Shown here: piece by piece, positions 4,138 to 59,099 of the stretch
Numbering within the stretch: the first letter of the stretch is position 1
Layout: every line of letters starts with the position of its first letter
IMG/VR virus record: IMGVR_UViG_3300027741_000022
Span: 62,001-126,000 of that record
Reading direction: 5' to 3' (one strand)
DNA length: 64,000 bases
Origin: a virus
Notes under the pieces: generated by a model
Databases searched by the model: none
What the model saw: only the letters and a program-made list of their open reading frames with translations
What the model was told of the DNA's origin: nothing
Position numbers and translations under genes: made by a program

Positions 4138-5393
4138 GCATATTAACTTGTTATTATAATCCCACCAATTCTGAGAATAGAACTCAGAATTTCTATAAAT
4201 TCTTGGATTCCGCTAAATCAAGCGGAATGGAAGATCATCTTTTTGTTTGTGAAATAGCAAAAAACGATCAGCCAAGATTGACTCCAACAAAAAATCATTT
4301 TTTGTTGTTGAGTGAAGATGATCTATGGCACAAAGAATGTGCTATAAATTTTTTAATTAAAAAAACACCAGAAAGCTATAAAAAAATTATAGTTTCTGAT
4401 TGTGATCTTATTTTTAATGATCTTGGGTGGGTTGAAAAGACCAGCGACTTGTTAAACGAGTATGTGTTTGTCCAACCATATGACAAGATAAAGTATCTTG
4501 GACCCGTAGAAGGCTCCTACGACAGTTTTTACGCCGGTATTGTGTCGTATATGCAAAACAGTAGGGTTGTGGATTTTGGCAATCCTGGGGCTCTTGTAGC
4601 GTATAGGAGAGACTATCTGAGGGCTGTTGATGGTCTTTTCGATAAATGCGTTGTGGGTGGAGGGGATACTATAAATATTATCCCTTTCTTTATTAATAGT
4701 TTCATGAAGTTAGATTTCCTAAATAGAGTTTGCCCAGACACCAGAGTTGAAGCTTTAGACTACATAAATAATTGTGTTGATTTCATTAAAAATAGTGGAT
4801 TGGGTTATGCGGCATATTTAAAAGACGTTGTTTTGACTCATTTGTTCCACGGAATGATAAAACACAGGCAATATGATTCGAGATACAACATAATTAACAA
4901 AATAACATTCAAAAAGAATTTTAAGAAAAAAAATGAATTATATCAGATAACATCAAACGAAAAACTGAAAAATGATTTAAAAGAATATTTGATTGAAAGA
5001 AAAGAAGATTTTAAGCTAAAAGATACAGCCTCTGTATGCATCAATAGCGCTAAATATCCTGTCGAATACGACATATTGTGGTTATGTGAACACAATAGCT
5101 TTATATTTAACAATATATCAAGAGTTAAGTTTCATTTGAAGAAAGTTAAACAATTAAAGAATTTTAAAGTAATATCAAATGATAAAGAAATATTCTCTAT
5201 ATTTGTTGAAAACAAAGCAGTTGTTGAAATTGAAAATCCAAATGTATTATTGATTAGCTCTGACTATTTTATCCCAGCTGATCTTGGCGAAAGTAAAGAC
5301 ACAAGAAGGCTATCTGTTGTTCTTGAGAAAATAGAGATAATTGCTAAAGACGCAACAGAATATACCAACTATCCGCTAGAGGATATATCTTGA
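4128..5393 (+). CDS. GT-A type glycosyltransferase-like protein
   Basis: The start is most likely ATG 4128 (MDVCILTCYYNP); an in-frame TTG at 4116 is an alternative. The N-terminal 200 residues look like a GT-A fold: an opening strand, the DxD-type motif VSDCDLIF that usually binds metal and nucleotide sugar, and a segment NPGALVAYRR...GGGDTI like the acceptor end of GT2/galactosyltransferase-like enzymes. The C-terminal 180 residues are not recognised. It begins a sugar-handling cluster that includes GDP-fucose synthesis, so transfer of a sugar to a phage or host surface structure is a fair guess; donor and acceptor are unknown. Confidence 0.7.
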   Translation: MDVCILTCYYNPTNSENRTQNFYKFLDSAKSSGMEDHLFVCEIAKNDQPRLTPTKNHFLLLSEDDLWHKECAINFLIKKTPESYKKIIVSDCDLIFNDLGWVEKTSDLLNEYVFVQPYDKIKYLGPVEGSYDSFYAGIVSYMQNSRVVDFGNPGALVAYRRDYLRAVDGLFDKCVVGGGDTINIIPFFINSFMKLDFLNRVCPDTRVEALDYINNCVDFIKNSGLGYAAYLKDVVLTHLFHGMIKHRQYDSRYNIINKITFKKNFKKKNELYQITSNEKLKNDLKEYLIERKEDFKLKDTASVCINSAKYPVEYDILWLCEHNSFIFNNISRVKFHLKKVKQLKNFKVISNDKEIFSIFVENKAVVEIENPNVLLISSDYFIPADLGESKDTRRLSVVLEKIEIIAKDATEYTNYPLEDIS

Positions 5394-6817: not shown

Positions 6818-8959
6818 ATGAGAAAAGCACTAATTACGGGAATCACGGGTCAAGATGGTTCCTACCTATCAGAACTTCTATTAAATAAAGGGTATGAAGT
6901 TCACGGAGTAATAAGAAGAAGCTCACTAATAAACACCAGTAGAATCAATCACGTATACGATCAATTGAATCTTCATTACGGAGATCTTACTGATTCTACA
7001 AATATCGTAAGGATTATACAAAAAGTTCAGCCAGATGAAATTTATAATCTGGCGGCACAAAGTCATGTGAAAGTATCTTTTGAATTGCCTGAATACACAG
7101 GCGATGTTGATGCTCTTGGAACTTTAAGGGTTTTAGAGGCTGTTAGATTATTGGGACTTGAGAAAAACACAAGAATTTATCAAGCATCTACTTCTGAGCT
7201 TTATGGTCTTGTACAAGAATCTCCTCAAAAAGAAACAACTGCATTTTATCCAAGATCTCCTTATGGTGTTGCAAAATTATATGGTTTTTGGATTGTGAAA
7301 AATTATAGAGAATCTTATGGAATGCACGCCAGTTCTGGTATTTTATATAACCACGAATGTTTTGACTCTAACACTCCATTGATTATTAAAAAAAATAATT
7401 TTATAGATATTGTTTATATAAGAAGTTTAACGCCAGAGAGAAAAAATATTCAAAAAGAAAATAATGTATTAACAAAAGAAATTAATAATTTGCAAGTTTG
7501 GAACGGAGAAAAATTTGTCAAAATTAATTTAGTGACAAGAAGAAAAATTAGCACGTTAGATAAAGAAAATCAAGAAAAAATAAATTTCAACACAAGGTCC
7601 GGAGTGGTTAAAGTTACACCTAATCATAAATTATTATTAAATAATTTTGACAAAATAACCGCCAGAGACGTCCCTTTAAACACAGAGCTTAAACATGGAG
7701 AATTTCCTCCTACTGATTGTTTGACTAATCTTACAATTGAGGAGTCGCAATTATATGGAATGCTTGTTGGTGATGGTAATATTTCTCAAAATAGAATTAG
7801 ATTTACAAATAACGATGAATTGATTCGAGATAAATTTATAAGTTTGTGCAGAAGTGTTTTCGGCAATATTACCCACAAGACACACTCCCACGCACTAGGC
7901 TATGGTGTCACGACACAAGTTGATATTTCTGGGTTGTCTAAAAATAAAGTTGCGTCAATAGCAGAAGAAATTTATGAGAAAAAAACAAAACACAAGAAAG
8001 TTCCTCAAAGAATATTGAATTCATCTATAGAAGTCAAAGAATCATTTTTTGAGGGATATTATGCTTGTGATGGACTAAAGAAAGATAGATGTACCTATAA
8101 ATATAAGTCGCTAAAAAGCAATTCTCCAATTTTATGTCAAGGTTTATTACTAATTGTCTCGCAAATAACAGGACAAAAATATAATATAAATGTTTTTGAG
8201 CAAAACAACAAAGAGTATTATCAAATAAATTTAAGGAATTCAAATAAAATTAATAATAAGGGTAGTCATTTTTTAAAAAATGACTCAGAGCTGAAGAAAA
8301 AATCTTCTTTAAAAAATGAAAATAAAGATTGTTTTGTGTATGATATAGAAACAGAATGTGGTTATTTGAATGCCGGGGTAGGAAAATTGGTTGTGGGTAA
8401 CTCTCCAAGAAGAGGTCAAACATTTGTTACTAAAAAAATAACAGATGCTTTTTACAAGATATCCACCAATCAACAAGATTGTCTTTATCTTGGCAATTTA
8501 AATGCTAAACGTGATTGGGGTCACGCAAAAGATTTTGTGGAGGCTATGTGGCTTATTCTTCAACAATATGAGCCTGATGATTACATAATAGCTACTGGCG
8601 AACAACACTCAGTCAGAGAATTTGTCGAGAAATCTGCTGCTTATTTTAATATGAAAATAGAGTGGCAAGGTGAAGAGTTAAATGAAATTGGAATTGACGT
8701 AAACTCTGGAAGAACTGTTGTTAAAGTTGACGCCAGATACTTTAGACCAGCAGAGGTTGAGTCTTTGCTTGGTGATGCAACAAAAGCAAGAGAAAAATTA
8801 GGATGGGTTCCTAAAACTTCTTTTGAACAACTTGTTGAAGATATGTGCGTGAATCAATTGGAGCAAAAAAATGAACAAAACAAGCAGAATATTTGTGACC
8901 GGACACAAGGGATTGGTTGGCTCGGCAATATTAAGAAATTTACAAAAAAATGGATATAG
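6818..8959 (+). CDS. gmd: GDP-mannose 4,6-dehydratase interrupted by an intein
   Basis: The host protein is GDP-mannose 4,6-dehydratase, which makes GDP-4-keto-6-deoxymannose. It has an N-terminal NAD(P) loop GITGQDGSYL, the STSELYG serine motif and the catalytic YxxxK in YGVAK. The normally continuous segment NHE-SPRRG is split: residues 181-528 form an intein beginning at Cys after NHE and ending in VVGN before Ser. After splicing, the extein regains SPRRGQTFVTKK and a normal dehydratase C-terminus. The last 30 residues overlap the fcl start. The product is used by the next gene to make GDP-fucose. Confidence 0.93.
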   Translation: MRKALITGITGQDGSYLSELLLNKGYEVHGVIRRSSLINTSRINHVYDQLNLHYGDLTDSTNIVRIIQKVQPDEIYNLAAQSHVKVSFELPEYTGDVDALGTLRVLEAVRLLGLEKNTRIYQASTSELYGLVQESPQKETTAFYPRSPYGVAKLYGFWIVKNYRESYGMHASSGILYNHECFDSNTPLIIKKNNFIDIVYIRSLTPERKNIQKENNVLTKEINNLQVWNGEKFVKINLVTRRKISTLDKENQEKINFNTRSGVVKVTPNHKLLLNNFDKITARDVPLNTELKHGEFPPTDCLTNLTIEESQLYGMLVGDGNISQNRIRFTNNDELIRDKFISLCRSVFGNITHKTHSHALGYGVTTQVDISGLSKNKVASIAEEIYEKKTKHKKVPQRILNSSIEVKESFFEGYYACDGLKKDRCTYKYKSLKSNSPILCQGLLLIVSQITGQKYNINVFEQNNKEYYQINLRNSNKINNKGSHFLKNDSELKKKSSLKNENKDCFVYDIETECGYLNAGVGKLVVGNSPRRGQTFVTKKITDAFYKISTNQQDCLYLGNLNAKRDWGHAKDFVEAMWLILQQYEPDDYIIATGEQHSVREFVEKSAAYFNMKIEWQGEELNEIGIDVNSGRTVVKVDARYFRPAEVESLLGDATKAREKLGWVPKTSFEQLVEDMCVNQLEQKNEQNKQNICDRTQGIGWLGNIKKFTKKWI
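7358..8401 (+). mobile_element. intein (348 aa) with LAGLIDADG-type endonuclease domain
   Basis: The insert starts with Cys1 (CFDSNTPLI) and ends with a block like VYDIETECGYLN followed by VVGN, with Ser as the +1 residue. The splicing block TPNHKLLL is visible near residue 265. Two degenerate LAGLIDADG helices appear: LYGMLVGDGNIS near residue 312 and FFEGYYACDG near residue 410. The penultimate residue is Gly rather than the common His; some active inteins tolerate this. The intein lies in a conserved active-region segment of gmd, as expected for inteins. Confidence 0.92.
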
Positions 8960-13811: not shown

Positions 13812-14870
13812 ATGTCCGAAAGCCTCATGATTGACCGGAATCTTATTACTGGAAGTCTTGCCGACACGATCAGGCGTAACCGTAAGGATGAACGCCCAGC
13901 CCTTATTTTTGGTCCTCCAGGTGTAGGTAAGAGCGAGCAAGTTAGGCAGGCTGGCGAAGAAGCGGACACTGTAATTGATCTTAGGCTTAACAGCTTGGAT
14001 TCAATTGATCTTCGTGGTCTGCCAACAATTCAAAAAGATGAGAATGGCAATCCAACTAAGGTTGTGTGGATTCGTCCTGAGTTTATTCCTTGGGATGGTA
14101 GGGGCATTCTTTTCCTCGATGAAATCAATACTGCTGCTCCAAGTGTTCAAAATCCGGCTTTACAGTTGGTTTTGGATCGCCGTATTGGATCGCATGAGTT
14201 GGGTAAGGATTGGTATATTTGTGCCGCCGGCAATCGTGCAGAAGATAAGGCGCACGTTTACCCTCTTAGCGGAGCTTTGATCGACAGGTTTGCTGTTTAT
14301 GATTATTTGCCCGATTATATGACTTGGAGTGATTGGGCGATGAAGAGTGGCATTCACGATACCGTGATCGGTTTTATTTCCTTTAGGAAAGAGCTTTTGC
14401 TCCAGCCAAGAGTTGATGAATATACTCCAAGCACCAATCCAAGAAGCTGGTCTTATGTGAGCAAGAAGCTTCACAATAAACACACAAGCCTGCAGGATAT
14501 TAGAGCTTGTGTTGGAGCGGCTGCAAGTGAGTTTCTCGCATATCTAGATGTTTATAAGAATCTTCCAGATATGGATAAGCTGATTAGCGGTAAGTCTAAG
14601 TGGAAGGAAGACAAGTCTAAGATCAGTGTTAGTTATGCAATTAGCACAAGTCTTGCAACCCATCTTCTTGGCAACAAGACTCCAGAAAAGATTCTCGATA
14701 ATTGTATGAATGTTGTTCTTGAGATGAGTCCAGAACCCGCAGCACTTTTTGTTAGACGGGCAATGAATTCTACGTCTAAGATTAAGTCTCTCATGTATTC
14801 AAGCAATGTTGTTGAAAAGTGGCTTGAGAAAAACCGAGAGCTTATTTCTGCATCTGTTGATCTTGTCTAA
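13812..14870 (+). CDS. MoxR-like AAA+ ATPase
   Basis: The 352-residue protein has a Walker A GPPGVGKS near residue 37, a Walker B ILFLDEIN near 102, an asparagine sensor in ICAAGNR and an arginine-finger region LIDRFAVYDY, as in the MoxR/AAA_5 branch. MoxR ATPases act with VWA-domain partners in metal insertion or protein-complex remodelling. The next gene encodes such a partner, so the two probably work as a pair. The start follows GGAG. Codons are more C/G-ended than in many neighbours, suggesting strong expression. Confidence 0.88.
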   Translation: MSESLMIDRNLITGSLADTIRRNRKDERPALIFGPPGVGKSEQVRQAGEEADTVIDLRLNSLDSIDLRGLPTIQKDENGNPTKVVWIRPEFIPWDGRGILFLDEINTAAPSVQNPALQLVLDRRIGSHELGKDWYICAAGNRAEDKAHVYPLSGALIDRFAVYDYLPDYMTWSDWAMKSGIHDTVIGFISFRKELLLQPRVDEYTPSTNPRSWSYVSKKLHNKHTSLQDIRACVGAAASEFLAYLDVYKNLPDMDKLISGKSKWKEDKSKISVSYAISTSLATHLLGNKTPEKILDNCMNVVLEMSPEPAALFVRRAMNSTSKIKSLMYSSNVVEKWLEKNRELISASVDLV

Positions 14871-14889
14871 TAGAAAGAGAACGTGATAT

Positions 14890-16218
14890 ATGCCCACAAA
14901 GACAAAAGTTAAACAAAATCTTGAAATTTCTCAAGAAGAAGAAAATGGATTTCGTAATAGACTAGATGTTGTGTTGTTTGGTTTTGCTCATTGGTTTCCT
15001 TTTTGGGGAATCTTGAGTGAAAGGTGCCGGTATAGTTTGACAAAGAACAACCTTCTTTGTCCAACTGCTTGTGTTGATAAAAATGGTCATATCATTTTCA
15101 ACCTTGAGTTTGTTGCCACATTGAGCAACGAGCAATTTCTTTTCTTGGTTGCTCATGAAATTTGTCATTTTGTTTTTGAACACGCACCCAGAATGGGAGG
15201 TAGAGATTCTTTATTGTGGAATATAGCGGCAGATTATGCTATTAATCTGATGCTTCACTATCAATTCAACAACATGAAATATATCATCAAGGATATTATT
15301 TTTGATGATTCTTGGAAAAGTGGGGGAGAATGTAAATATGATGGATTGACCGTAGAAGCTATTTATGAAGATCTCAAGAAGGATAAAGACAATAAGTATG
15401 TCAAGGCTATGGGGTCTGGCAATTCTCCCAAGGATATTATTGTTTATGTTTTCGATGAGAACGAAAATGAGCCTGGAGACGGCAAGCCTTCTGAAGGTGA
15501 TATAAAGTATGTCAATATTAGAGATCGGCGTGTTCCACTTCCAAACAAAAAGGGTAAATCTCCCGAGCAAATTTCTCAGGAAATGAAGGATCATGTTCGC
15601 AAAGCAATTACCGAGGCTTTTACTATTTCAAAAAGTCAAGGAAATATGCCTGCTAATTTTGAGCGAGCTATCCATAAACTCTTAAAGCCAAAGATTGATT
15701 GGATTTCTGCCTTAAGGCAGCGATTGAGGCATGGCGTAAGCAGAATGGAAAAAAGAGACACTACTTGGATGATTCCTAATCGTAGGTTTCTTGGCGGAGA
15801 TTTTGTTTTTCCAAGTAATGTTGGTCCCGAAAGCCCAAAGATTTGCTATGCTATTGACACAAGCGGCAGCATGAGTCAAGAAGATATTACCAAAGCTATT
15901 TCTGAGCTTGAGGAAATTCGAAAGAGGTTTAACGCAAAGGTTTATTTTCTTGATTGTGACGCAAATGTTTATTCAAGCAAGTGGATTGGTCCGAATGAGC
16001 CACTGCCTAAATTAGCTGGTGGTGGTGGAACTGACTTTAGACCTGTGTTTGAACACTTAAACGACAAGAAAATCAATCCAGATTACTGTATATTCTTCAC
16101 TGATGGATATGGTGAATTTGGAGAAAACCAAAAGCATCTAAATGTTCTTTGGATAATGACAAGCGATGTTGTTCCTCCGTTTGGAGACGTTATTCGTTAT
16201 AATGTAATGCAGGAGTAG
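14890..16218 (+). CDS. metallopeptidase-like plus VWA domain protein (MoxR partner)
   Basis: The N-terminal third has a zinc-peptidase HExxH motif (LVAHEICHFVFEH near residue 92), as in the putative metallopeptidase domain paired with DUF2201. The C-terminal part is VWA-like with a metal-site DxSxS (AIDTSGSMS near residue 320), a later GGGGTDFRP threonine motif and FTDGYGEF. This architecture usually sits beside a MoxR ATPase, as here. A chaperone-like or protein-modifying role during infection is likely but unproven. Confidence 0.85.
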   Translation: MPTKTKVKQNLEISQEEENGFRNRLDVVLFGFAHWFPFWGILSERCRYSLTKNNLLCPTACVDKNGHIIFNLEFVATLSNEQFLFLVAHEICHFVFEHAPRMGGRDSLLWNIAADYAINLMLHYQFNNMKYIIKDIIFDDSWKSGGECKYDGLTVEAIYEDLKKDKDNKYVKAMGSGNSPKDIIVYVFDENENEPGDGKPSEGDIKYVNIRDRRVPLPNKKGKSPEQISQEMKDHVRKAITEAFTISKSQGNMPANFERAIHKLLKPKIDWISALRQRLRHGVSRMEKRDTTWMIPNRRFLGGDFVFPSNVGPESPKICYAIDTSGSMSQEDITKAISELEEIRKRFNAKVYFLDCDANVYSSKWIGPNEPLPKLAGGGGTDFRPVFEHLNDKKINPDYCIFFTDGYGEFGENQKHLNVLWIMTSDVVPPFGDVIRYNVMQE

Positions 16219-28415: not shown

Positions 28416-29025
28416 ACCTATGTCTGTTTATTCTTATAAACAACACACAATAAACATATACTACGATAAAAACCCAGAAAATAACCCAAGGTCAAATGAT
28501 AATCTTGGAACTATTCTCTACGGAGATAATGAAGAATATCATGAACTTTGTAACTGGGGTGATGCAGTTGCAGATTGGGATGAGATAGAAGAAATAGAAA
28601 AAAATGACAGTTGCATATACACCCCAGTTTATGGTGCTGTAACAATGAATGGAATTGTTTTAAGTGCAAATCCTATTGGTGGTTTTGGCAAAAGTGGAAA
28701 ATGCGGAATAATTCACAACACAAAACGCAACCTTGATTTGATGAAGAGTTCTTACCACTCTTTCCAGAAAGATAGCAAATCTTTGCTCAGTAGTTTTTCT
28801 GATTATGATTGGGCTATCTCTGTTTTCAAAAAAGAAATACGAGTGTTTAGCGACTTCCTTGAAGGAAGAGTTTATGGCTATGAAACAGAAAATACTGCTG
28901 GGGAAGTTTTGGACAGTTGCTGGGGTTATATTGGAGTGGATATAAAAGAAATATACGAGGAAGCAAAAGAGATAATCGACAAGTGCTACTCTGAAAACGA
29001 AGAGCCTATTGAACAGCTTTATTGA
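28402..29025 (+). CDS. hypothetical phage protein
   Basis: Start is ATG 28402 or 28420; neither has a clear ribosome site. The centre (CIYTPVYGAVTMNGIVLSAN...GKCGIIH) recalls phage proteins with a YxHxGxxxSTxPFxCPWDSGQVG-like core, here degenerate. Function is unknown. Confidence 0.6.
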   Translation: MQKSKPMSVYSYKQHTINIYYDKNPENNPRSNDNLGTILYGDNEEYHELCNWGDAVADWDEIEEIEKNDSCIYTPVYGAVTMNGIVLSANPIGGFGKSGKCGIIHNTKRNLDLMKSSYHSFQKDSKSLLSSFSDYDWAISVFKKEIRVFSDFLEGRVYGYETENTAGEVLDSCWGYIGVDIKEIYEEAKEIIDKCYSENEEPIEQLY

Positions 29026-29039
29026 CGGATTGACAAGAA

Positions 29040-29057
29040 GTTTCCTCGCGGTACGCT
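29040..29057 (+). promoter_or_regulatory. 18-bp phage element, copy 7 (GTTTCCTCGCGGTACGCT)
   Basis: One-base variant with TTGACA 16 nt before TACGCT, so it reads as a near sigma-70 layout. It lies 53 nt before ATG 29111. Confidence 0.65.
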
Positions 29058-29110
29058 GTGGTGTTGTAGGACGGACGGATAGACAAAAATACTTATACAG
29101 GAGATATAAA

Positions 29111-29779
29111 ATGGGTTTTGCTGATGAAATTCCTTCGGACGATGCTGGCGATTCTAAGAAGAAGAGCAAGCCGAAGGAGCAGGTTTACTTTAGTGATACC
29201 GACGCTGGTGGTATGAATCTTTTTGATAAGGTTTCCGCTTTTAAGCACGCTATCAAGATTATTGAGGGCGAGCTGGATATTGCGGAAACTGATCTCAAGG
29301 CTGCACTTCGGCAGCGTTTTGCTCAAGAAGGCGTGAGGACTCATACCAAGCCCGAAAGCATTGAGGCTCAAGGTGATGTTGCCTCCTCCACAATTAGCTT
29401 CAAGAAGGGCATCAGCGTTCTTGATAAGAAGACTCAGACCGATTTTAAGAACCTTGGCGTCAACTTCAGTGTTGTTGAAAAGGTTGAAATCAAGAAGGCT
29501 GTTCTTCAAGATCAGTCTAAGGTCGATCAGCTCATTGATCTGATTAAGTCAGCTGGTCTAAAGGTCAGCGATTACTTTGATCGAACCGAGAAGATTGTTC
29601 CGAGTGATCGGACTACCTCCGATATTCTTGATAATGTCAAGGATGTCAGTAAGGTTGTAGAGTATTTCGAGAAGGTTAGCACTATTGCTATCGGAACTCC
29701 GCATTTCGACGGAGATAGCATTAAGGCTAAGAAGAAGATTGTGAGCATTCTTAATGCCACTGGAATCTTCCAGGTCTAA
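29111..29779 (+). CDS. hypothetical, probably highly expressed protein
   Basis: ATG 29111 has GGAG upstream. The 222-residue protein is charged and helical with no recognised family. An 18-bp element with a TTGACA box and a strong terminator enclose it as a single-gene unit. Its codons are more often C/G-ended. These features suggest abundant expression. Confidence 0.75.
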   Translation: MGFADEIPSDDAGDSKKKSKPKEQVYFSDTDAGGMNLFDKVSAFKHAIKIIEGELDIAETDLKAALRQRFAQEGVRTHTKPESIEAQGDVASSTISFKKGISVLDKKTQTDFKNLGVNFSVVEKVEIKKAVLQDQSKVDQLIDLIKSAGLKVSDYFDRTEKIVPSDRTTSDILDNVKDVSKVVEYFEKVSTIAIGTPHFDGDSIKAKKKIVSILNATGIFQV

Positions 29780-43789: not shown

Positions 43790-43926
43790 CTGACGAAACA
43801 GGTTTCGAACCTGTAACCTAGCGGTTATTCCACTGTTGGGAATTGAACCCAATAAATATCCAGCTTTTTGAGCTTCAATTCAGTGGCTTTGTACAGCCGC
43901 TCGCTCTACCGTTGAGCTATTCGCCA
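43790..43926 (-). tRNA. tRNA-Asn (GUU) with a 65-nt insert in the anticodon loop
   Basis: On the minus strand the outer parts form acceptor TGGCGAA/TTCGTCA with discriminator G (U1-A72 and G73, as in Asn), D arm GCTC/GAGC, anticodon stem AGCGG/CCGCT and T arm ACAGG-TTCGAAA-CCTGT. Removing 43828-43892 gives the loop CTGTTAA, anticodon GUU. The insert lies between bases 35 and 36. CCA is not encoded. Confidence 0.8.
43828..43892 (-). other. tRNA-like structured insert inside tRNA-Asn
   Basis: The insert folds on itself: outer stem CCACTG/CAGTGG, a T-arm-like TTGGG-TTCAATT-CCCAA and a small AGCT hairpin, like a D-armless tRNA. An alternative 13-bp pairing joins CCACTGAATTGAA to TTCAATT and CAGTGG with a 5-nt bulge. 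It does not have group I intron core sequences. Confidence 0.7.
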
Positions 43927-57618: not shown

Positions 57619-57890
57619 GGGTGATTAGCTCAACGGTAGAGCAATCGGCTTTAAAATTAAGAGTGCCTGAAAGGAAACTTTTGGAGTAGAACTGCTCAAA
57701 TTCGGTGAAGGCTTAACTGCTAATACCGAGCCAAGCCTAAGAGATTAGGAAGGTGTAGAGACTTGACGGGCAGCACCTAAAGTCGAAAGACAATGGCGAA
57801 GGTAAAGTCCAGACTACAAACCGCAAGGGCAGTGAAAACTGTAGTAGTACGTTAACCGATTGGTTGAAAGTTCGAATCTTTCATCACCCA
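57619..57890 (+). tRNA. tRNA-Lys (UUU) split by a group I intron
   Basis: Exon 1 is 57619-57651 and exon 2 is 57852-57890. The joined tRNA has acceptor GGGTGAT/ATCACCC with discriminator A, D arm GCTC/GAGC, anticodon stem ATCGG/CCGAT, loop CTTTTAA (as in bacterial tRNA-Lys) and T arm GAAAG-TTCGAAT-CTTTC. CCA is not encoded. Confidence 0.92.
57652..57851 (+). ncRNA. group I intron in tRNA-Lys
   Basis: The 200-nt insert shares the conserved core of the other two tRNA introns (TCGGTGAAGGC, AATACCGAGCCAAGCC, GGTGTAGAGACTTGACGG, AAGTCCAGAC). It ends in G and places a U-G pair at the 5' site. It sits between anticodon bases 34 and 35. No open frame is inside. Confidence 0.93.
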
Positions 57891-57989
57891 CTTTTTATTT
57901 GTTCTTTGACAATTTAAATTTTAAAAGAACTGAAGCACATACTATATTAGAGTATAGGATTTATAATCCATTACTTTAAGGAGGTATCT

Positions 57990-58403
57990 GTGCACAGTAA
58001 AAGGAAAGGAAATATAGGACAATTTGGTGTAGGACTAGCCTTGTCTAAGTTGGGCTATTCAATCTTTACAGAAGAAGGGGATATTTCTAAGATTGATTTA
58101 ATAGCAGAAAAAAATAATAATTTATTGAAAATTCAATGTAAAGCGGTAACACCTTCTTCAAAAGGATTTATACCAATTCCTTTGAAAAAAAGTGGACCTA
58201 ACTACCAGTTCAAGTATAATTCTAAAATGTTTGATTATTTTGGAGTTTACGATTTAGAAGATGGCTCTGTATATTTGATACCATCTTCTGTGCTAGACAG
58301 CCACAACAATATGTTTAGCTTAAGAAAATCAAAACCTAAAAATAACCAAATAGTTGGTGTGAATTATGCAGAGGACTATCTAGTTAAAAATATACTTGGA
58401 TAA
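57990..58403 (+). CDS. PD-(D/E)XK endonuclease, probable homing enzyme
   Basis: A GTG start follows AAGGAGG. The 137-residue protein has GQFGVGLALSKLGY, then DISKIDLIAE and LLKIQCKAV, the D...QxK core of the PD-(D/E)XK group that includes the cyanobacterial intron enzyme I-SspI. It lies between two intron-bearing tRNA genes. The introns lack their own endonuclease gene, so this protein probably spreads one or more of them by cutting intronless tRNA genes. Confidence 0.78.
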   Translation: MHSKRKGNIGQFGVGLALSKLGYSIFTEEGDISKIDLIAEKNNNLLKIQCKAVTPSSKGFIPIPLKKSGPNYQFKYNSKMFDYFGVYDLEDGSVYLIPSSVLDSHNNMFSLRKSKPKNNQIVGVNYAEDYLVKNILG

Positions 58404-58414
58404 AAACAAAACAC

Positions 58415-58687
58415 GGGAGCGTAGACCAACGGCAGAGTCAAAGGACTTGATATTAAATTGAGTGCTTAAAGAGAAATCTTTAATGTAGAATCGCTTAAAT
58501 TCGGTGAAAGCTTAACTGCCAATACCGAGCCAAGCCTAGAAATAGGAAGGTGTAGAGACTTAACAGGCGACACCTAAAGTCGAAAGACAATGGTGAAGAT
58601 AAAGTCCAGACTACAAACCGCAAGGGTAGTGAAAACTATAGTAGTAAGAAAATCCTTCAAGTACGAGTTCGAATCTCGTCGCTCCTA
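58415..58687 (+). tRNA. tRNA-Leu-like (UAA) split by a group I intron
   Basis: Exon 1 is 58415-58448 and exon 2 is 58649-58687. The joined RNA has acceptor GGGAGCG/CGCTCCT with discriminator A, anticodon stem AAGGA/TCCTT with loop CTTAAAA (anticodon UAA) and T arm ACGAG-TTCGAAT-CTCGT. The variable loop is only 5 nt, while bacterial tRNA-Leu normally has a long arm, so the amino-acid identity is uncertain. Confidence 0.8.
58449..58648 (+). ncRNA. group I intron in tRNA-Leu-like gene
   Basis: The 200-nt insert is close to the tRNA-Lys intron in the core (CAATACCGAGCCAAGCC, GGTGTAGAGACTTAACAG, AAGTCCAGAC) and ends in G. It interrupts the anticodon after U34, as in the classic cyanobacterial tRNA-Leu(UAA) intron. 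No frame is inside. Confidence 0.93.
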
Positions 58688-58733
58688 CTGTCATCGATGT
58701 TAATTTAATTTATTCACTAACTAACTAAAACTC

Positions 58734-59094
58734 GGGGACGAATTTGGTATCGACTGGATAAAAAGATTTATAATTGCATGTCGGAGTTAGTCGATGGCTC
58801 CGTTAAAAATCGACTAAAGCCTTAACCGGCACTGTTAATTACGCAATGGCTGCCTGATAAAAAGGGCTACCACGGATTTAGGAAGCTACTGTAGGATGCG
58901 TCCTAATAATTCGTCGTCAAATCCTACTGGTTTTCTGATGGTCAACTTATCAGAAAATGAGAAAATAGGTTGAGAGGTTTTAAAGACTTTTGTTTATTGT
59001 AGTCTTTAAGGTCTTATTGAACAATAAGCCAAACATGTGAAGAAGTTATATTTTGATTTATCTCAGGACAGGAGTTCAACTCTCCTCGTCTCCA
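58734..59094 (+). ncRNA. ssrA: tmRNA
   Basis: The 361-nt RNA starts GGGGACGAATTTGGTATCGA, as tmRNAs do, and ends CAGGAGTTCAACTCTCCT, then CGTCTCCA, pairing with GGGGACG to close the tRNA-like domain. The inner frame ends in GTT-AAT-TAC-GCA-ATG-GCT-GCC-TGA-TAA, giving a tag tail VNYAMAA like the bacterial NYALAA; with GCC as the likely resume codon the tag would be ALTGTVNYAMAA. Several pseudoknot-like arms follow. CCA is not encoded. It would rescue stalled ribosomes during infection. Confidence 0.93.
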
Positions 59095-59099
59095 CTTTC

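Follow-up and report, generated by a model that had tools for sequence, protein, structure and literature searches.

Results

An interrupted tRNA-Asn gene

We analyzed a window of 64,000 nucleotides (nt), bases 62001-126000 of the 187,644-base-pair (bp) virus record IMGVR_UViG_3300027741_000022, and studied a transfer RNA (tRNA) gene for asparagine that is interrupted within its anticodon by 65 nt. The gene lies on the minus strand, from 43926 to 43790; an initial annotation, made from the letters of the sequence, had not stated the strand. The outer sequence reads TGGCGAA TA GCTC AACGGTA GAGC G AGCGG CTGT before the insert and TAA CCGCT AGGTT ACAGG TTCGAAA CCTGT TTCGTCA G after it, and removal of the insert gives a cloverleaf with U1-A72, G73 and the anticodon GUU, as expected of a functional tRNA-Asn. 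That annotation had called the outer sequence a good tRNA-Asn, in agreement with the Rfam tRNA model RF00005, which scores 50.2 bits over the full 137 nt (43790-43926), and with the presence of all outer arms.

The insert (ACAAA G CCACTG - AATTGAAGCTCAAAAAGCTGGATATTTA - TTGGG TTCAATT CCCAA - CAGTGG AA) has an acceptor-like stem that encloses a central arm and a T-arm; it has no D-arm (Table 1). The coordinates, the length, the position between bases 35 and 36, the stem CCACTG/CAGTGG and the T-arm TTGGG-TTCAATT-CCCAA given earlier were all correct on recheck. So was the claim that the insert lacks a group I core: it has no match to RF00028 even at E ≤ 5. The fold of the precursor was better than that of 200 of 200 shuffled sequences (z = -4.25).

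Table 1. Parts of the split tRNA-Asn gene and other interrupted tRNA genes of the same phage (window positions unless marked otherwise)
Feature	Position	Strand	Evidence
5' exon of tRNA-Asn: acceptor 5' strand, D-arm, anticodon-stem 5' strand AGCGG, loop CTGT (bases 32-35)	43893-43926	-	sequence; RF00005
tRNA-like insert, 65 nt, between anticodon bases 35 and 36	43828-43892	-	fold; relatives L335, L110, L115, L064, L015
A-rich leader ACAAA, 5 nt, preceding the acceptor-like stem; ATAAA or AAAAA in relatives; subfamily-specific	43888-43892	-	comparison with relatives
Acceptor-like 5' strand G-CCACTG; first G opposite A, unpaired	43881-43887	-	fold, subfamily alignment
Central arm AATTGAAGCTCAAAAAGCTGGATATTTA, replacing D and anticodon arms; 3-4 of 4 base pairs in 5 of 6 subfamily members	43853-43880	-	subfamily alignment
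Insert T-arm TTGGG-TTCAATT-CCCAA	43836-43852	-	fold, subfamily alignment
Acceptor-like 3' strand CAGTGG	43830-43835	-	fold, subfamily alignment
AA tail (equivalent to bases 72-73), abutting 3' exon U36-A37-A38	43828-43829	-	table of inserts
3' exon of tRNA-Asn: T36 A37 A38, anticodon-stem 3' strand CCGCT, T-arm, acceptor 3' strand, G73; CCA not encoded	43790-43827	-	sequence; RF00005
tRNA genes with a group I intron of about 200 nt in the anticodon loop	40920-41198, 57619-57891, 58415-58688; L446 1989-2285 (near record base 148,000)		

Inserts at the same site in diverse phages

We scanned viral contigs for tRNA-Asn genes with a 45- to 75-nt insert between CTGT and TAA, leaving the insert itself unconstrained; the matches listed are a lower bound. 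Further scans looked for a T-arm within a tRNA and required neither the anticodon nor TAA. We scored an insert as fold-positive if a perfect acceptor-like helix of at least 4 bp at its borders enclosed an adjacent T-arm with a T(T/G)(C/G)RA loop. The borders were assigned by exon pairing and identity bases, because ARAGORN misplaces the intron border and gives wrong isotypes (Ile, His). Tandem tRNAs matching with an apparent insert of 73 to 75 nt were discarded as false positives, and cellular matches to that pattern were kept apart, either as false positives or as introns of the archaeal type. Three inserts found at the right place without the full fold (L061, L073 and L231) were excluded from the fold-positive counts.

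After removal of artefacts, at least 42 fold-positive inserts remained, with 40 distinct helix sets, coming from diverse phages and ranging from 43 to 75 nt in size. The interrupted genes encode Asn(GTT), Lys(TTT), Thr(TGT), Ile(GAT) or Met/Ile2(CAT) tRNAs, and each tabulated member has its insert between bases 35 and 36, followed by U36-A37-A38, though the T-arm scans did not demand this. An exception is L124, in which a complete tRNA-Phe(GAA) sits within a tRNA-Arg(TCT) between bases 34 and 35 (around 5000-5140, plus strand), and L266 is ambiguous, being either a Thr gene split at 35/36 or a Lys gene split at 34/35. Exon identity bases always match the spliced anticodon: G73 is present in all Asn genes and U1-A72 in all but two of them, and the remaining genes carry G at base 1 and either A or T at base 73.

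Isolated phages carry such genes as well. Sinorhizobium phage phiM12 has an insert in tRNA-Asn; the gene was deposited as a pseudogene, "tRNA-OTHER", and there are matches at the corresponding place in its relatives phiM7 and phiM19. In Agrobacterium phage Atu_ph07 two genes are split, tRNA-Asn and tRNA-Lys (MF403008.1 323905-324023 and 68159-68280), with no tRNA annotated at either, and when the uninterrupted homologue of Agrobacterium phage OLIVR5 is aligned with Atu_ph07, a clean gap of 46 nt falls at 35/36. Salicola phage SCTP-2 has an unannotated insert in tRNA-Asn. The initial annotation had proposed a search in other phage tRNAs and allowed for a one-off or an artefact; that idea fails, since the inserts are present in phiM12, Atu_ph07, SCTP-2 and many independent contigs and are therefore no product of assembly.

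Statistical support for the tRNA-like fold

The fold was present in 41 of 44 candidate phage inserts, in 0 to 1.5% of the dinucleotide shuffles of any single sequence, and in none of 13 introns that an almost identical pattern picked up in cellular genomes, most of them archaeal. Because some of the other scans required a T-arm, the unbiased figure is that from the scan with the insert unconstrained, 21 of 23 among the matches listed. A chance origin of the fold is excluded.

For 31 reduced sequences, we studied the outer anticodon stem together with the nested acceptor/T helix. Here, 99.8% of the cells were paired, compared with 56.4% after shuffling and at most 49% after sliding, a figure that leans towards structure because the reduced sequences were excised by helix. 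Cells with double changes numbered 195, against 54.6 in shuffled data. Nearly every acceptor position showed four to six pair types, a variety that is independent of the helix-based excision. The anticodon stem, which forms across the insert, covaries, and the outer tRNA is therefore under selection to fold. Since the anticodon stem and the other outer arms keep compensatory changes and the identity bases fit the spliced anticodon, the suggestion that the element disables the tRNA is disfavored. The two other options offered at first, a small intron and a nested tRNA, appear to hold jointly: tRNA-like inserts occupy one conserved anticodon-loop site in many phage tRNAs.

Anatomy and size of the inserts

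Predicted folds place an acceptor-like stem next to the 5' border of the insert. The stem starts 0 to 1 nt past base 35 in 36 of 42 inserts, and where it starts after 1 nt, bases 1 and 72 nearly always form a purine-purine mismatch. On the other side, a 3' tail of 1 to 6 nt, mostly 1 to 2 (after base 73) or 4 to 5 (after base 76, in tRNA numbering), ends at U36; some tails read TCCA, ACCA, ACTA or AACCG. Whole tRNAs are inserted in L016 (tRNA-Gly), L072 and L124, and nested CCA ends are found in L016 (CTGT/tRNA-Gly...TCCA/TAA), L072 (...TCCA/TAA) and L422 (...ACCA/TAA). The D-arm is kept in L014, L081, L082 and L422, and the smallest inserts, of 43 to 51 nt, are an acceptor stem and a T-arm alone. 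Short inserts are of two kinds. Where the loop is TTCRA, the stem is mostly followed by an unpaired linker carrying GG about 3 to 5 bases on (AAAGGTAA), reminiscent of the GG with which the D-loop contacts the T-loop. Where the loop is TGCRA, a small hairpin mostly occupies the linker position. L340 and Atu_ph07 each combine, in one phage, an Asn gene with a TTCRA-type insert and a Lys gene with a TGCRA-type insert.

The window insert and its five relatives (Table 1) make up a subfamily of six. The T-stem is paired at five of five positions in all six members, and RNAalifold on the subfamily returns the nested fold. The initial annotation had also described an alternative long hairpin. This hairpin does occur in the predicted minimum-energy fold of the window sequence, but the relatives do not keep its pairing (7, 4, 6, 3, 3 and 6 of the 7 pairs in its 7-bp part across the six members), and we rejected it as a conserved structure.

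A candidate route of excision and joining

We propose that the insert is probably an intron in which a nested mimic of a tRNA serves as the signal for removal, excised by tRNA-processing enzymes, with the exons sealed by an RNA ligase. Minihelices of acceptor and T-arm are minimal substrates of RNase P, and RNase P leaves an upstream 3'-OH and RNase Z a downstream 5'-phosphate, both of which are used by RNA ligases of the T4 type. On the 5' side, host RNase P would read the acceptor/T-arm elbow and cut, so that the 5' tRNA half ends in a 3'-OH. On the 3' side, RNase Z or another tRNA 3'-processing enzyme would cut after base 73 or 76, and the 3' half would begin with a 5'-phosphate. The anticodon stem would hold the two halves together while an ATP-dependent RNA ligase, usually the phage's own (of T4 Rnl1, Rnl2 or DRB0094 type), joins base 35 to 36; a kinase/phosphatase step would be unnecessary. 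The inserts of 43 to 51 nt may be whole nested tRNAs worn down to the part that the processing enzymes read. Bacterial RNase Z prefers a uracil just downstream of the tRNA, and the U36 rule could reflect this preference or a target preference at insertion.

The phage studied here encodes an Rnl1-family ligase (238 bits) outside the window, at record bases 28485-29462. A ligase of Rnl1, Rnl2 or DRB0094 type is present in 19 of 24 insert lineages, this phage included, and 13 of 33 controls, a difference (Fisher p 0.003) that is uncorrected for phage relatedness; the count covered insert records of at least 80 kilobases (kb), with a cluster of L004-like records counted once, and the controls were large tRNA-bearing phage records in which no insert was found. 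No match to the AAA_33 kinase was found in six ligase-bearing insert records, this phage included, as expected if the proposed route needs no end healing. RtcB was not found in the nine records tested, G000 included, and G005, G010 and the L004-like cluster (four of its members tested) showed none; a host-supplied RtcB is possible. As partner enzymes we rejected both RtcB, absent in the tested records, and polynucleotide kinase, which is patchy. Once the ends are healed, T4 Rnl1 seals tRNA-Lys broken in its anticodon loop (PMC3400036), and phage tRNA ligases have been described as repair enzymes (PMC7824862).

Several observations weigh against this route. Many inserts have an acceptor stem of only 4 to 6 bp, a purine-purine mismatch at 1-72 and no CCA, and should therefore be weak substrates of RNase P. 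The window subfamily departs from the usual start of the stem: five conserved A-rich nt (ACAAA in the window) and an unpaired G separate the stem from base 35. After a clean RNase P cut ACAAA would stay on the 5' half, so that trimming or another cut is needed; in the window gene, extra trimming would have to remove it. The predicted minimum-energy fold of the window sequence, which holds the alternative hairpin, is 5.5 kcal/mol better than the nested fold. A more sensitive search for ligases added one case (G071), and even that search gave no RNA ligase in G005, from the window subfamily, in G010 or in the L004-like cluster, although these records could be incomplete, or the ligase could come from the host. 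The cluster (L004, L009, L012, L029, L055, L056, L098 and L435) has a 51-nt insert in tRNA-Asn and complete-looking contigs of 75 to 134 kb.

Alternative explanations

The insert might be a spliced intron that is cut by another agent, either a phage or host endonuclease reading the minihelix or the UAA of the 3' exon, or an anticodon-nuclease-like enzyme followed by repair, with the tRNA-likeness serving for binding. Such an agent would be favored by several traits that standard tRNA end processing does not readily explain: the variable 3' tails (AAAAG, GAGAT, AACAG, AT), the strict U36-A37-A38, the mismatch of purines at 1-72 and the ACAAA leader. The whole nested CCA-ended tRNAs at the same site favor the ordinary tRNA enzymes instead, and no candidate nuclease was identified; we consider another agent unlikely, though a serious contender. 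It is considerably harder to believe that the value of the insert lies in defence evasion or timing, in that it shields the unprocessed precursor from host anticodon nucleases and keeps it out of translation, with removal by the proposed route or in some other way. Phage tRNAs have been reported with anticodon-loop changes that avoid host tRNases (PMC10264068), and all outer tRNAs read ANN codons, as do some known tRNase targets, but the spliced loop is standard (CTGTTAA in Asn) and could be cleaved again.

A reading in which the phage makes the gene for its inner tRNA-like RNA, with the outer tRNA a mere carrier or a dead gene, would fit the few inserts that are complete tRNAs (Gly in L016, Phe in L124) and the deposition of the phiM12 gene as a pseudogene. 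We find this very improbable, given that compensatory changes maintain the outer anticodon stem, acceptor and T-arm and that most inserts have neither an anticodon arm nor CCA. Four other tRNA genes of the same phage carry group I introns, which might suggest a degenerate intron of that kind, or else an artefact of assembly. We give this practically no credence: the insert has no group I match, its relatives share the tRNA-like fold and no group I core, and the recurrence in isolated phages and independent contigs is as described above. A group I remnant, with no match in the insert and no support from the relatives, was rejected.

Other features of the phage genome

In an ARAGORN search of nearly all of the record, tRNA-Asn was found once, as the split gene. 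Five of the seven tRNA genes found are split, one by the insert studied here and four by group I introns, and two are uninterrupted. Three group I introns elsewhere in the genome exceed the RF00028 gathering score. Between two of the tRNA genes with group I introns lies a free-standing open reading frame for a PD-(D/E)XK endonuclease (PDDEXK_5; window 57990-58403), perhaps a homing enzyme, and a transfer-messenger RNA with the tag GTVNYAMAA is found at 58734-59095. Further away, a long open reading frame (6818-8956) matches GDP-mannose 4,6-dehydratase in two stretches and is followed by an epimerase gene, pointing to a sugar-nucleotide pathway, and adjacent genes for an AAA ATPase and a DUF2201 protein (metallopeptidase and VWA-like) at 13812-16218 resemble a MoxR-VWA pair.

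Discussion

Judged from the sequences compared here, the inserts seem rather likely to represent a new class of tRNA intron in bacterial viruses, in which a nested tRNA, either whole or reduced to acceptor and T-arm, would act as the excision signal, and end-processing enzymes together with a phage 5'-3' RNA ligase would perform the splicing. To our knowledge, the known tRNA introns of bacteria and phages are self-splicing (group I or II), and protein-based tRNA splicing is taken to be archaeal and eukaryotic. Our literature search, which covered no preprints and few subscription papers, found no earlier description of such introns.

If correct, the proposed route would add a third mode of splitting and rejoining tRNAs, by a short and noncatalytic insert at one anticodon site in many phages. 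Phage RNA ligases would gain a role in tRNA biogenesis, making it directly testable why so many phages carry them, and in some phages one transcript could yield two nested tRNAs. A tRNA inserted into a tRNA would provide a simple origin for tRNA introns, with stages from the whole nested tRNA to a 43-nt minihelix. Phage tRNA genes that are now missed or labelled pseudogenes would be rescued.

The closest known systems each share part of this design. Like the protein-spliced tRNA introns of archaea and eukaryotes (bulge-helix-bulge, splicing endonuclease, and RtcB or Trl1), the phage inserts are short, noncatalytic and located in the anticodon loop, and their removal would involve protein enzymes and a ligase. 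The phage site is 35/36, however, whereas 37/38 is usual in those organisms; the hosts are phages; and the ligases are 5'-3' enzymes of the T4 type in place of RtcB or Trl1. Group I introns in bacterial and phage tRNAs also interrupt the anticodon loop but are about 200 nt long with a catalytic core, compared with 43 to 75 nt and no core. In the T4 Pnkp/Rnl1 system, which repairs host tRNA-Lys after cleavage by PrrC, a phage enzyme of the Rnl1 family likewise joins a broken anticodon loop; in the split phage genes the break would be deliberate, made by tRNA processing and joined without a kinase, placing the ligase in biogenesis rather than repair. The minimal architecture, finally, is that of the minimal substrates of RNase P and of the tRNA-like structures that it processes, but here nested in a tRNA whose halves would be rejoined.
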